From positions 1 through 38,295 of the forward strand of contig PQXD01000014.1 in NCBI GenBank assembly GCA_003194485.1: a stretch of DNA of 38,295 bases, in the 5' to 3' direction. Made by a program: the position numbers and the translations under genes. Of this stretch, positions 33,048 to 38,295 are shown in pieces; within the stretch, counting starts at the first letter, position 1; every line of letters starts with the position of its first letter. Source of the stretch: Deltaproteobacteria bacterium (GTDB lineage Bacteria > Desulfobacterota > Dissulfuribacteria > Dissulfuribacterales > UBA3076). Under the pieces are notes generated by a model that worked only from the letters and a program-made list of their open reading frames with translations, searched no databases and was not told the origin of the DNA.

Positions 33048-34454
33048 ATGCCCGACCTTCTGTTATTTAATCCCTGGTGGGAAAATCCTGAAAGCATCGA
33101 ATCAGATCGATATCTTTCTGCCTATCAGCAATCCTTGATTCAGTGGCGGCCGAACATCCTGAATGAATTTGATTTCAATCAAGACGCTGTCTATACCCTT
33201 CGTGGCCCTCGTCAGGTAGGAAAAACGACCCTGACAAAACTCATCATTCACAATCTTATAAAATCAGGCGTGCCTCCAAGAGCCATTTTTTATTATTCCT
33301 GCGATCTGATTCCCGGCACCGACGAAGTATTCGAGCTTCTCAGGCAATACCATGAATTTTCCCAGCCACTCAAGTTCAAGAGGCGGTACGTTTTCCTGGA
33401 TGAGATTTCCCTGGTCCCTGAATGGCAGTATGCTGTTAAACAGGCCATTGACCTTGGATGGGGCCAAGCCACAACCTTCTTATTCACGGGTTCCTCCGCG
33501 GTAGATATTAAACGGGGAGCAGAAAGACTTCCAGGCCGTCGTGGGAGAATTCCCTTCCCAGACAAGGTCCTGTTGCCCATGAACTTTGCCGAATTTGTTG
33601 AAAAATGCTCTGATTTATCCCTCTCCATGACCAAGCCATCCTTCAGCAAACTCCTGGGAGATCTTGATGAGATTAAGAAACTTAAGTCACAGACCAATGT
33701 TTTTCTCCCAAGATTGTCCTCTCTTTTAACCGATTTTCTCAAGGTAGGCGGGTTCCCTTTGGCTGTAGAGCAGTTTTTGAGGGCAGGATCACTTTCTGAG
33801 GATATACTCGAAATCTACTTGACCGTAATTCGATCCGATTTTGAAAAGATAAAAAAAAGCCGAATCCTCCTCCGGCAAGTTATGATCAGAATCCTGTCGA
33901 TCTCAGGAACCCCTGCCAGTTGGCAGAGCCTGGCCAGGCCGATTGATACCCCGTCCTACAGAACTGTCCGGGAATACAGTGAGCTCCTATCCGACTCCTT
34001 TCTGATGGCCATACTTTATTTTCTGGAAAAGAACAAGAAATTGGCCAATCCCAATAAGGGCAAGAAATTTTATTTCTCCGACCCTTTGATCCTAAACCTC
34101 GCCGGTCGCGAGGCAGGCGTTCCTATGCTCCAGGACCTCGGCAAAGCCGTGGAAGCTGTAATGGCTATCCATCTGATCAGGAAATTTGAAAAGCGGATTT
34201 TTGAGGGTCTTGGCAACATCGAAAAAATTTTCTACTGGAAATCTACCAGAGGCAAAGAAGTTGATTTCGTGATCCTCCACGAGGACAGCTTTATTCCGGT
34301 GGAAGTCAAATTCCAGGGTATTATTACCCCCATTGATTATTCTGCCATGAAGAGAGCTTTCGGCAGGGGCATTCTGGTTACCAAAGATATGTTCTTCCGC
34401 GATAACCAGATTGTCGGGATTCCGGCACCCGTGTTTCTGCTCCTTTTGGAGTAA
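33048..34454 (+). CDS. AAA ATPase with DUF4143 C-terminal domain
   Basis: This 468-residue protein belongs to the AAA_14/DUF4143 family, mobile, patchily distributed ATPases of unknown role. The Walker A motif is GPRQVGKTT (residues 53-61), Walker B is YVFLDEI (114-120) and a sensor-like FTGSSA follows. The C-terminal DUF4143 part contains GKEVDFVI..IPVEVKF, resembling the D-x(n)-E-x-K core of PD-(D/E)xK nucleases. The start has only a weak AAGAAG upstream. It stands alone between repeat-rich intergenic regions, next to the DUF2283 locus, consistent with an acquired accessory island; a toxin or defence role would be speculation. Confidence 0.88.
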   Translation: MPDLLLFNPWWENPESIESDRYLSAYQQSLIQWRPNILNEFDFNQDAVYTLRGPRQVGKTTLTKLIIHNLIKSGVPPRAIFYYSCDLIPGTDEVFELLRQYHEFSQPLKFKRRYVFLDEISLVPEWQYAVKQAIDLGWGQATTFLFTGSSAVDIKRGAERLPGRRGRIPFPDKVLLPMNFAEFVEKCSDLSLSMTKPSFSKLLGDLDEIKKLKSQTNVFLPRLSSLLTDFLKVGGFPLAVEQFLRAGSLSEDILEIYLTVIRSDFEKIKKSRILLRQVMIRILSISGTPASWQSLARPIDTPSYRTVREYSELLSDSFLMAILYFLEKNKKLANPNKGKKFYFSDPLILNLAGREAGVPMLQDLGKAVEAVMAIHLIRKFEKRIFEGLGNIEKIFYWKSTRGKEVDFVILHEDSFIPVEVKFQGIITPIDYSAMKRAFGRGILVTKDMFFRDNQIVGIPAPVFLLLLE

Positions 34455-34662: not shown

Positions 34663-34737
34663 TTAATTCTTCTGGGTATGGCAGTAGAAGCAGCCTTTAT
34701 CATCTCCTCCGCCACCTGCCTGTTGTGCTACATAATC
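34663..34737 (-). pseudogene. Stranded C-terminal haem segment of the downstream cytochrome
   Basis: Directly after the TGA at 34738-34740 the same frame stays open for 24 codons to TAA at 34663-34665. It encodes DYVAQQAGGGGDDKG, then CFYCH and TQKN. This aligns with the end of the upstream paralogue (DYSLMDAG...GGCFICHTTK). It is the natural last haem site of the protein at 34738-35808, now beyond a stop. Confidence 0.85.
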
Positions 34738-35808
34738 TCACCTGAGCAAATCAGGATAGGGTGAACCATGAGGCCTGTGACAGGAAAGGCACATAACAAA
34801 GTCCGTGCCGGGGGTAACGGTTCCGTCAGGTGTCCCGTCTACGGTTGGACTGGCTACCGGAGAAAGCGGGTCATATAGGTGGCTTGAGCCTCCTGTATCT
34901 GCATATTCCGAACCTGCTGTATCTGGAATAACGGCGTCAGAAGGATGACGGATCCAGGAAACACCACTTTTTTGTGTATGAAATTTTAGATGGCAACCCC
35001 CATAAAAAGCGGTCGTTGTGGGGGTTGCATTTAAAAGTCCCCCGCTTGCGGAGCCCAGATACTCATTGTGATTGTTAGCCTGACCTTGAGCAAGACTTGG
35101 CTGACCTGCCTCCCAAAGACCGTGTTCATAGCCTTTAACTCCATATTCCCAATGTCCTGAGAGAAAACGATACCAGCCCTGGTCTATGGTTGTTACGAGC
35201 CCCCCTTGACCATTTGGATGGTCGTTGGCATGATGTCTTACATTTAGATGGCAGCCCTCACAGCCATATTTGCCTGGAAGATTGTAGCCCATATCAGGGC
35301 CAGTAAAAGGTTCACTTAAATTTTGATGGCAAGAATTCTCTACACCACCACAGCTTAAAATAGTATTCCCGGGAGCGTTATTAGTACCATCTGGGCCAAA
35401 ATATTGGTCTCCCTCATGTAAAAATACATTGTGCCCCTTTGTATCATCGGCATCCCCGTCTGGGCTTACCCACCAGAAGTTTCCATCAGCCAGGTATGAG
35501 CTAGGTTCACCACCTGTGTAAAGCACCACTGGAACCTTACAGCCATCTAAATCATACCAGGTAGAAGAAGTAGCAGAAGAATGGCAGCCCACACAGGCGC
35601 TGGAGCCTGCTTTAGCTAAGAGACGTTTTTTAGGGAGTTTAGATGGATCTCCCCAAGCAGGCTCCCCAGGCTCAGAACCATCAGGCCAAGGTGTCTGGCT
35701 GGCATGCATGGTATGACAGTTTGCGCAAAGTCCTGAAACATGAGCAAAGGCCGAATAGGGCATAAAGACCAGGCCCAAGAAAATGCTAAAGACCACGTAT
35801 TTCTTCAT
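34738..35808 (-). CDS. OmcS-like multihaem cytochrome c, truncated by TGA and missing a haem Cys
   Basis: This is an exported c-type cytochrome of 356 residues. I prefer the ATG at 35808 over one 30 bp upstream because GGAAGGGG lies before it and the protein then starts with a clean signal peptide (MKKYVVFSIFLGLVFMPYSAFA, cleavage after residue 22). Haem motifs are CANCHTMH (28-32), CVGCH (72-76), CEGCH and CLSCHRPHG, plus an odd C-x6-CH (CGGVENSCH). A fourth-site equivalent reads FYGGCHLKFH, where the paralogue has LCAECHGDFH, so the first Cys is Tyr (TAT at 35002-35004). The TGA replaces the Trp of DILRWDY in the paralogue and removes a final CFYCH. Together the defects suggest decay. Confidence 0.85.
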   Translation of the reverse strand: MKKYVVFSIFLGLVFMPYSAFAHVSGLCANCHTMHASQTPWPDGSEPGEPAWGDPSKLPKKRLLAKAGSSACVGCHSSATSSTWYDLDGCKVPVVLYTGGEPSSYLADGNFWWVSPDGDADDTKGHNVFLHEGDQYFGPDGTNNAPGNTILSCGGVENSCHQNLSEPFTGPDMGYNLPGKYGCEGCHLNVRHHANDHPNGQGGLVTTIDQGWYRFLSGHWEYGVKGYEHGLWEAGQPSLAQGQANNHNEYLGSASGGLLNATPTTTAFYGGCHLKFHTQKSGVSWIRHPSDAVIPDTAGSEYADTGGSSHLYDPLSPVASPTVDGTPDGTVTPGTDFVMCLSCHRPHGSPYPDLLR

Positions 35809-36044
35809 TGTTCTTCCCCTTCCTGAATGAGTTGACATACTTTATAGGAAGAAGTGGTGTATATACGCCTTAGTATAAATTTGTGGTGCTAACTAAGTAC
35901 TAAACTTTTATCAGGTTCTGGCAACAAAAACCCAATTTTTGGATAAATTACGAGAATATCAACAAGAAGATGTAAAACCTGAGAAAGATATATAGCCCTC
36001 CTTTTCTTCCCCTATCCATCTTCTCCTCCTTAAACAAATATTAG

Positions 36045-36085
36045 ATACGGATTTATTAGAGGGATTTCCCCTAATAAATCCGTAT
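36045..36085. terminator. Perfect 15-bp inverted repeat between the two cytochrome genes
   Basis: ATACGGATTTATTAG (36045-36059) and CTAATAAATCCGTAT (36071-36085) are exact reverse complements, and the short loop can extend the stem with GGG/CCC. It lies 57 bp past the stop of the upstream minus-strand cytochrome. The stem is AT-rich and lacks a T tail, so it may be a terminator, an mRNA 3'-end stabiliser or a protein site. The rest of 35839-36141 shows no gene. Confidence 0.6.
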
Positions 36086-36141
36086 TCTTAAATAAATGCC
36101 CAAAAGCTAGCCTAATTAATTATTATCTAACTGCACTACTA

Positions 36142-37338
36142 CTACTTCGTTGTATGACAGATGAAGCAGCCGCCTACGTTATTTCTTGGGTCTAAATCAG
36201 AGCCAGCATCCATCAACGAATAATCCCACCTCAGGATGTCGTCATTTGGTGTTCCGTGAGCACGGTGACAGGAGATACAGGTAACTACGGTATCATCGCT
36301 GAAAGTAACCGGAGTAATAGTCATACTGGCACTAAGCGTAACCCAGGCAACAGGGGCGATGGTACTGTAAGTATGATCACTTGTCCCAGGTGCGCCATAG
36401 CCTCCATATTCTTTTGTTTTCACATTCCCCATGTCATAATCAGTGGGATGTCTTAACCAGGGAGCCCCTATGTTAGCATCGGGATTATCCATTCCTAAAT
36501 CACCTGTACCGCCATGGAAATCGCCATGACACTCAGCACAGAGGTAACTGATGGTAGAAGTATCACTCCTGGCATCAGTTGTCCTATCTTCACCTTTATA
36601 GACATTGTGATTACTACCGCCTGTGGGGCTGGCATTCTCTTCCCAATCTGGGTCCTCAATGCCCTTGATGCCTAAAAGAAAACGGTAGCTTTTAGCCACC
36701 GAAGAACCGGCTTCAGCATCGTTATAGGTATCCAATTTCAGGCAGGTATCGTCACCATGATGTGCACCAGAGATACCAGCAGCCGAGCCTTCAACTGAAG
36801 GGTCACCATGGCAGCCATAGGTGCCACCGCAGCTAAATTTGGCCATGTCCCAGGAATCTGGGCGTGCGGGCAAAGGATAATCATACTTATACCCAGGTGG
36901 ATCAGTAAAACCAGTTGTACCTATGCCTTCATCTTGAACATTGTGACCTTTTGCGTCACCTGAGCCGAGTGCTGCCCAGTAGAAATTACCGCCTGCCAGG
37001 ACTTCACCCACACCTGCAACCAGACCGGTGGTGGTATAACTTGGTCCACCTGTAGTCCAGACAACAGGAACAGTGGAGGTACCTAGTGTCTTTGTGACAC
37101 CAGTAGTAGCACTGTGACAGCCCACACAGTCACCCACAAGGAGAGCAGGTTTAGGAAGATTAGATGGATTTCCCCAATCAGGCTCATCCACTTCAGAACC
37201 ATCAGGCCAAGGTGTCTGGCTGGCATGCATGGTATGACAATTATTACACGGCCCTGTTACCCTTGCCATAGCCATACTGACAGAAAAAAGAATTACACCC
37301 AGAAAAACGATAGTAACTAAGAGATTTTTGCTCTTCAT
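36142..37338 (-). CDS. OmcS-like multihaem cytochrome c (putative extracellular electron conduit)
   Basis: This is an exported cytochrome of 398 residues with a signal peptide ending SMAMA (about 1-25) and AGGAGGT upstream of the ATG. Haem motifs in order are CNNCHTMH (31-35), CVGCH (71-75), C-x5-CH (CGGTYGCH), CAECHGDFH, CISCHRAHG and a terminal CFICHTTK. Spacing and flanking words follow Geobacter OmcS, as I remember it: first haem CxxCHTMH, a GHN block, a YRxL block, CANCHTDIH then LRHP, CLSCHRAH, and a CxxCH at the extreme C-terminus. OmcS is a hexahaem protein that polymerises into extracellular nanowires; the same role here is inferred. A shorter, damaged tandem paralogue follows downstream, like the omcS-omcT pair. 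Confidence 0.85.
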   Translation of the reverse strand: MKSKNLLVTIVFLGVILFSVSMAMARVTGPCNNCHTMHASQTPWPDGSEVDEPDWGNPSNLPKPALLVGDCVGCHSATTGVTKTLGTSTVPVVWTTGGPSYTTTGLVAGVGEVLAGGNFYWAALGSGDAKGHNVQDEGIGTTGFTDPPGYKYDYPLPARPDSWDMAKFSCGGTYGCHGDPSVEGSAAGISGAHHGDDTCLKLDTYNDAEAGSSVAKSYRFLLGIKGIEDPDWEENASPTGGSNHNVYKGEDRTTDARSDTSTISYLCAECHGDFHGGTGDLGMDNPDANIGAPWLRHPTDYDMGNVKTKEYGGYGAPGTSDHTYSTIAPVAWVTLSASMTITPVTFSDDTVVTCISCHRAHGTPNDDILRWDYSLMDAGSDLDPRNNVGGCFICHTTK

Positions 37339-37669: not shown

Positions 37670-38295
37670 TCATTCCAGCTGAACACTGTACTTTTGTAAT
37701 ATATCTTCTTTGGTGATCCTTTCAGGAACTCCGGTTGGCATAAGAACATTACGACCGCAGAGAATGAAAACCTCATAGGCATCAAAGATGGCGTAGCGGT
37801 CCTGGTCAAAGATTATAAGCTTGTTGCCGTTTTCTTCCTTGACCTTTTCCCGGAATTTACGAATTCCGGTATCTTGGCCGTTCTGTTCCAATTTATCCTG
37901 TTGATCCATCCAGCCTTGATAGGCAGTGGTCAGGGCCATGGTCAAGATGGTTAGATACGCATGGGCTCTAAAAGCAGCCTTGGTATTTTGTGGAGGCCTC
38001 TGGATGAACCACGCCTGCTTTGCTTCCCGAAACAGGGAGTTTTCAATTTCGCTGCGGGGATCATACCCGTCATAGACCTTTAACGGTTTACTTGCAGGGC
38101 TGTTGGTCAGGATAACCAGGGTCTTGGAATCGGGATTGTTTTCTTTGTAAGGATCCTGCAAAACGACGACCGCATTTATGGGATTGGCCACGAAATCTTT
38201 ATGGGTTTCATGGCTGCCACTGCCAAGCGGCCCATAAAACCCTGCAGTGGTCAAACCTTCGATACCCACAACCTCCCATGAGTCAATTACAATAG
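37670..38295 (-). CDS. Transposase, IS4-like DDE family, 3' part (runs off the window)
   Basis: The reading frame is open from the window edge (IVIDSWEVVGIEG...) to the stop at 37670, so this is the C-terminal about 208 residues of a larger transposase. The segment YDPRSEIENSLFREAKQAWF, followed by AFRAHAYLTILTMAL, resembles the Y-x2-R-x3-E-x6-K region of IS4-superfamily enzymes (here with one extra residue before Lys), containing the last catalytic Glu. The start, terminal repeats and target duplication lie outside or could not be seen. It borders the cytochrome pair and supports the view that this end of the window is mobile. Confidence 0.8.
   Translation of the reverse strand, partial: IVIDSWEVVGIEGLTTAGFYGPLGSGSHETHKDFVANPINAVVVLQDPYKENNPDSKTLVILTNSPASKPLKVYDGYDPRSEIENSLFREAKQAWFIQRPPQNTKAAFRAHAYLTILTMALTTAYQGWMDQQDKLEQNGQDTGIRKFREKVKEENGNKLIIFDQDRYAIFDAYEVFILCGRNVLMPTGVPERITKEDILQKYSVQLE

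Follow-up and report, generated by a model that had tools for sequence, protein, structure and literature searches.

The window, by which we mean the whole stretch of 38,295 nucleotides analyzed here, carries on its minus strand a tandem pair of OmcS-like multiheme cytochrome genes, an intact type I gene followed by a damaged type II gene. Gene content and order identify the pair as the 3' end of the known oet (OetABI) cluster. The likely explanation of the locus as a whole is that an OmcS homolog, probably a polymerizing one that would take electrons from an archaeal partner, is the product of the type I gene, and that the type II gene has decayed, its role probably being covered by a third copy.

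A signal peptide is predicted at the start of the type I product, consistent with an exported multiheme protein. The gene and its heme sites are as follows:

36142..37338, minus strand: intact OmcS-like cytochrome, type I, 398 aa
37234-37248, minus strand: heme site CNNCH (motif CNNCHTMH)
37114-37128, minus strand: heme site CVGCH
36808-36831, minus strand: heme site CGGTYGCH (CX5CH)
36526-36540, minus strand: heme site CAECH (motif CAECHGDFH)
36265-36279, minus strand: heme site CISCH (motif CISCHRAHG)
36154-36168, minus strand: heme site CFICH (C-terminal motif CFICHTTK)

The motifs KGHN, SYRFL, and LRHP are also present. For this gene, the motifs and motif order listed in a first-pass annotation of the window were correct; the CX5CH site was absent from that list.

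Both window genes encode true homologs of OmcS of Geobacter sulfurreducens, as judged from profile comparisons. The first-pass annotation had singled out OmcS, and the profile search agreed: a 32-member family profile matched OmcS in the PDB (6ef8/6nef) with an E value of 1.5e-23 and another family profile did so with 3.5e-20, the next matches being 0.019 or worse. OmcE (7tfs) reached 0.064, and OmcZ did not appear among the matches at E values up to 10; having no significant sequence match to the family, these two resemble it only in general kind, as multiheme c-type cytochrome filaments. Only profiles reached OmcS, and single-sequence phmmer searches of the PDB returned no match. An hhalign comparison to the OmcS residues taken from the PDB match gave a probability of 99.4%, with 283 aligned columns at 24% identity. 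The two systems share homology over ~300 residues, tandem paralogs, and the order CHTMH, CxxCH, GHN, YR(I/F)L, CxxCHxxxH, RHP, and C(L/I)SCHRAH. The OmcS histidines in CHTMH (His16), GHN, CHTDIH, RHP, and CHRAH fall on positions kept in 61-63 of 63 family members, and the residue aligned with His16, a putative ligand here, is invariant (63/63). OmcS has an inter-subunit histidine ligand, which we take to be His16; a literature search on OmcS His16 gave no result. The likeness has limits: the remodeled region of the third heme site aligns poorly, type I having CX5CH there in place of the third CXXCH of OmcS; the C-terminal heme is unaligned; the invariant HH of type I has no aligned OmcS counterpart; and type II has a seventh heme site. 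An AlphaFold2 run on eight sequences reached no usable confidence (pLDDT 32.9, pTM 0.25), with no heme chain or polymer interface seen, and we therefore propose filament formation by homology only.

The two window proteins are ~40% identical and have ~40 invariant columns in common with 30 further homologs, a resemblance in sequence that is not due to chance. Family matches were found in 10 of the 46 genomes of the order and in 46 of the 395 sampled genomes of the phylum, and Pfam and NCBIfam searches of the cytochromes returned only a generic doubled-CXXCH family. In an alignment of 63 members, the CHTMH histidine, the GHN histidine, the HH pair, the RHP histidine, and the C-terminal heme site are invariant, and seven candidate distal histidines are conserved across the family. 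Type I proteins have six heme sites, one of them a putative CX5CH site (CAGTYGCHG-like); intact type II relatives have seven. The term CX5CH did not occur in the papers that a literature search listed. One type II site varies in spacing among intact relatives, being CX2CH in ~12, CX3CH in 8, and CX4CH in 5 (hand count). This series from CX2CH to CX4CH (for example, loci L003, L005, L029, L066, and L089), with CX6CH in the broken window copy, is a natural set on which heme attachment could be tested.

Phylogeny and gene order place the two window genes in two subfamilies, and the pair, at 39% identity, is old, not a recent duplicate. In the tree, the type II window gene groups with a third family member from its own genome inside the type II group, at 92/93 support, and type I members fall outside it; the root is uncertain, since OmcS sits on a very long branch. 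Type I is followed by type II on the same strand in all 14 distinct tandem pairs examined, the window included. The third copy, which brings the source genome to three members, lies at position 56349-57437 of the same contig, 20 kb away in the same cluster, and is an intact type II gene. The split offers a handle for testing separate roles, as the two proteins are related, one of them carries an additional heme site, and their genes lie adjacent across the phylum.

The tandem arrangement noted in the first-pass annotation was borne out: the type II gene starts 333 bp downstream of the type I gene on the same strand, its frame running from 35808 to 34663. This frame carries two lesions:

34663..35808, minus strand: degraded OmcS-like cytochrome, type II, open only to 34738
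35002..35004, minus strand: TAT (Tyr) replacing the first Cys of a CXXCH heme site, giving YGGCHLKFH; Cys in 62 of 63 aligned members, Tyr only here
34738..34740, minus strand: in-frame TGA at a near-invariant Trp; W in 60 of 63 aligned members, F in 2
34678-34692, minus strand: last heme site, CFYCH (motif CFYCHTQK), lost because it lies beyond the TGA

The gene thus lacks an intact frame with all heme sites. Both lesions fit G-to-A changes on the coding strand. The frame also holds CGGVENSCH (CX6CH) and CEGCH, both missing from the earlier motif list. Among 107 near-full-length homologs (at least 300 of 353 profile positions, counted by hand from the match table for the sampled genomes of the phylum), an internal stop occurs in this one only, and for this reason the gene is probably a pseudogene. 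The first-pass annotation had described two exported paralogs with the same motif order. That description holds for 36142-37338; for 34663-35808 it would require read-through of the TGA, and the CxxCH..FH motif is there YGGCHLKFH. The notion of two working paralogs gives way before a nonsense codon and a lost heme cysteine in one of them. Convergent with the broken gene on the plus strand (33048-34454) is an AAA_14/DUF4143 ATPase gene.

Could both genes nevertheless be functional, the two lesions being assembly or population artifacts of a metagenome-assembled genome (MAG) in which an intact type I and type II couple exists as in relatives? We think this unlikely. The lesions are known from the MAG assembly, and the stretch past the TGA (DY..Q.AGGGGDDKGCFYCHTQKN) still closely matches the intact HotSeep-1 ortholog. 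Against an artifact stand two independent lesions, both at near-invariant positions and both fitting G-to-A changes on the coding strand, an unusual CX6CH site, a transposon nearby, and the lack of an internal stop in every other one of the 107 homologs. That the source organism reads TGA as tryptophan, or otherwise suppresses it, is far less probable still, even with the TGA falling exactly on a near-invariant tryptophan: QmoA, RpoC, Pta, AckA, and Eno all end in TGA, TGG is used nine times in 34663-35808 itself, and an internal TGA is absent from 18 window genes. We rejected recoding on these grounds. Decay of the type II gene remains our preferred reading, and the broken copy is a warning that an omcS-like gene in a MAG need not mean a working protein.

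The two genes also share a short tract, and a hairpin lies between them:

37150..37242, minus strand: tract in the type I gene, partner in the 93-nt match
35629..35721, minus strand: 93-nt tract in the type II gene, sharing 88% identity with 37150-37242, including 47 bp that match exactly; holds CHTMH
36045..36085, no strand assigned: strong hairpin (18-nt arms) within the 333-bp intergenic gap; -29.4 kcal/mol for a 71-nt segment, z -7.1

As overall nucleotide identity between the two genes is ~50%, the 88% identity in this N-terminal tract suggests gene conversion. A conversion-like mosaic was also seen between the type II third copy (L003) and a genus mate's type I gene (L009), with DNA identity of ~85% at the N terminus, ~80% at the C terminus, and ~53% between. 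The hairpin is the only copy in the genome, and the gap between type I and type II genes is only 15-131 bp in other genomes.

Beyond the window, read toward the pair on the same strand, the contig carries a 12-heme gene, the third OmcS-like gene, a 7-heme gene, genes for a beta-propeller lipoprotein, a putative porin of 686 aa, and a PPIase, the 26-heme and 16-heme cytochrome genes, and two NHL propeller genes. An IS701-like fragment, with an N run of 1.5 kb, separates these from the OmcS-like pair. The neighboring 7/8-heme protein had no match to any solved structure. The N stretch of ~1.5 kb (L015:297-1811) after the IS701-like fragment could be either a gap in the assembly or masked sequence. 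Inside the window, the element appears as:

37670..38293, minus strand: partial IS701-like transposase running into the N run, between the pair and the beta-propeller genes

In relatives, the beta-propeller genes adjoin the OmcS-like pair, and one genome (G177) has the same gene order without the insertion; the block of PPIase, 26-heme, 16-heme, NHL, and type I genes is conserved in relatives. The oet core (propeller, 16-heme, 26-heme, and PPIase) was found at 38-59 kb of the contig. The core operon has been described by Skennerton 2017 (PMC5539420), and the cassette by Murali 2023 (PMC10553843). The locus agrees with that oetABI/omcX/omcS-like cassette of syntrophic sulfate-reducing bacteria in its PPIase, 26-heme, and 16-heme genes, its six-bladed propeller, its putative OetI porin with OmcS-like genes, and the set of genomes concerned; unlike the cassette, it has an IS701-like element splitting the pair from the propellers and a broken type II gene. 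The pair of HotSeep-1 (Ca. Desulfofervidus auxilii; L094, G082:C1:634849-635991 and 633647-634828) likewise has type I then type II on one strand, with a type II tail almost identical to the post-TGA part here, but it is intact and does not adjoin the 16/26-heme genes.

The putative OetI porin (C14:51398-53455, L015:13399-15456), whose barrel is predicted, had no Pfam or NCBIfam match and is 71% identical to the HotSeep-1 homolog in the matching cluster position. It is 83% identical to its counterpart in one genus mate (G008) and only 26% to that in another (G004), whereas for RpoB the identity is 90% with genus mates and 60% with HotSeep-1. Because the porin identities are at odds with those of RpoB, the cluster has probably moved between lineages; inter-clade transfer was already proposed by Murali 2023 (PMC10553843). 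A second OetI-type porin was sought in the source genome and not found, the only one being HotSeep-1-like (71%). The S7 Fig legend of Murali 2023 (PMC10553843), by contrast, places E20 OetI beside Thermodesulfobacteria and Dissulfurirhabdus and G37 OetI beside Desulfofervidales; the labels or sequences used may differ.

The source genome (2,549,842 bases) is putatively assigned to the ANME partner Seep-SRB2 sp. 4 strain E20 (PQXE00000000). That the organism is a sulfate reducer, as the first-pass annotation had said, is supported by aprBA-qmoABC in the window and dsrA in the genome. The same annotation had electrons exported, to minerals or a syntrophic partner. In this ANME partner, flow is thought to run inward, from the archaeon to sulfate, so the proposed direction is probably backwards. 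The E20 enrichment consists of ANME-2 and Seep-SRB2, and hydrogen gave no stimulation of its sulfate reduction (PMC4736303). Redox conduction consistent with multiheme cytochromes has been described for ANME consortia (PMC12372872), and Murali 2023 (PMC10553843) proposed OmcS-like filaments receiving electrons from ANME. We suggest that the exported type I protein most likely polymerizes, OmcS-like, into an extracellular heme chain in which a histidine of one subunit would ligate a heme of its neighbor. Electrons from the archaeal partner would enter this chain, perhaps a filament, and cross the putative OetI porin together with its 26-heme and 16-heme cytochromes, reaching periplasmic carriers and finally sulfate reduction. 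The type II gene downstream would be a decayed copy, with the intact type II copy 20 kb away probably covering its role. A working OmcS-like chain would form part of the wire that carries methane-derived electrons to sulfate in marine sediments.

It is somewhat unlikely that we are dealing with non-polymerizing multiheme carriers of OmcS descent, either soluble or bound to the surface, long-range transfer being the work of OmcX or another cytochrome. Type II exceeds OmcS by one heme site, the structure prediction was uninformative (pLDDT 33), and for ANME-2c/Seep-SRB2 consortia Murali 2023 (PMC10553843) lists OmcX, not OmcS-like, among the extracellular cytochromes with the highest expression. 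Such expression also fits a decaying OmcS-like gene, though it is not proof. Whether Geobacter has a physiological need for OmcS filaments is itself disputed (PMC11077965). Against non-polymerizing carriers stand the conservation, in 63 of 63 members, of the histidine aligned with OmcS His16 and the high expression of OmcS-like cytochromes in other ANME partnerships, reported by Murali 2023 (PMC10553843). We retain a polymerizing type I protein as the preferred reading. An extension of it, tentative and on balance doubtful, is that syntrophic sulfate reducers build nanowires of two components, with six-site type I and seven-site type II proteins copolymerizing or forming two filaments with different jobs and the extra type II heme serving as a side exit or junction. 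If so, gene conversion confined to the N terminus would keep the joining surfaces compatible.

The OmcS-like role has already been proposed in print for this set of organisms. To this our analysis adds that the second gene is broken, that type I and type II follow a fixed order, that type II has a seventh heme site, that heme-site spacing varies, and that the N-terminal part holds a tract suggestive of conversion; some of these details may already be listed in the supplementary tables of Murali 2023. We also observed the same PPIase, 26-heme, 16-heme, NHL, and type I block on a contig filed as Chloroflexi (L004), whose type I protein clusters, at 98/97 support, with that of a genome from the window's genus, pointing to mis-binning or transfer.
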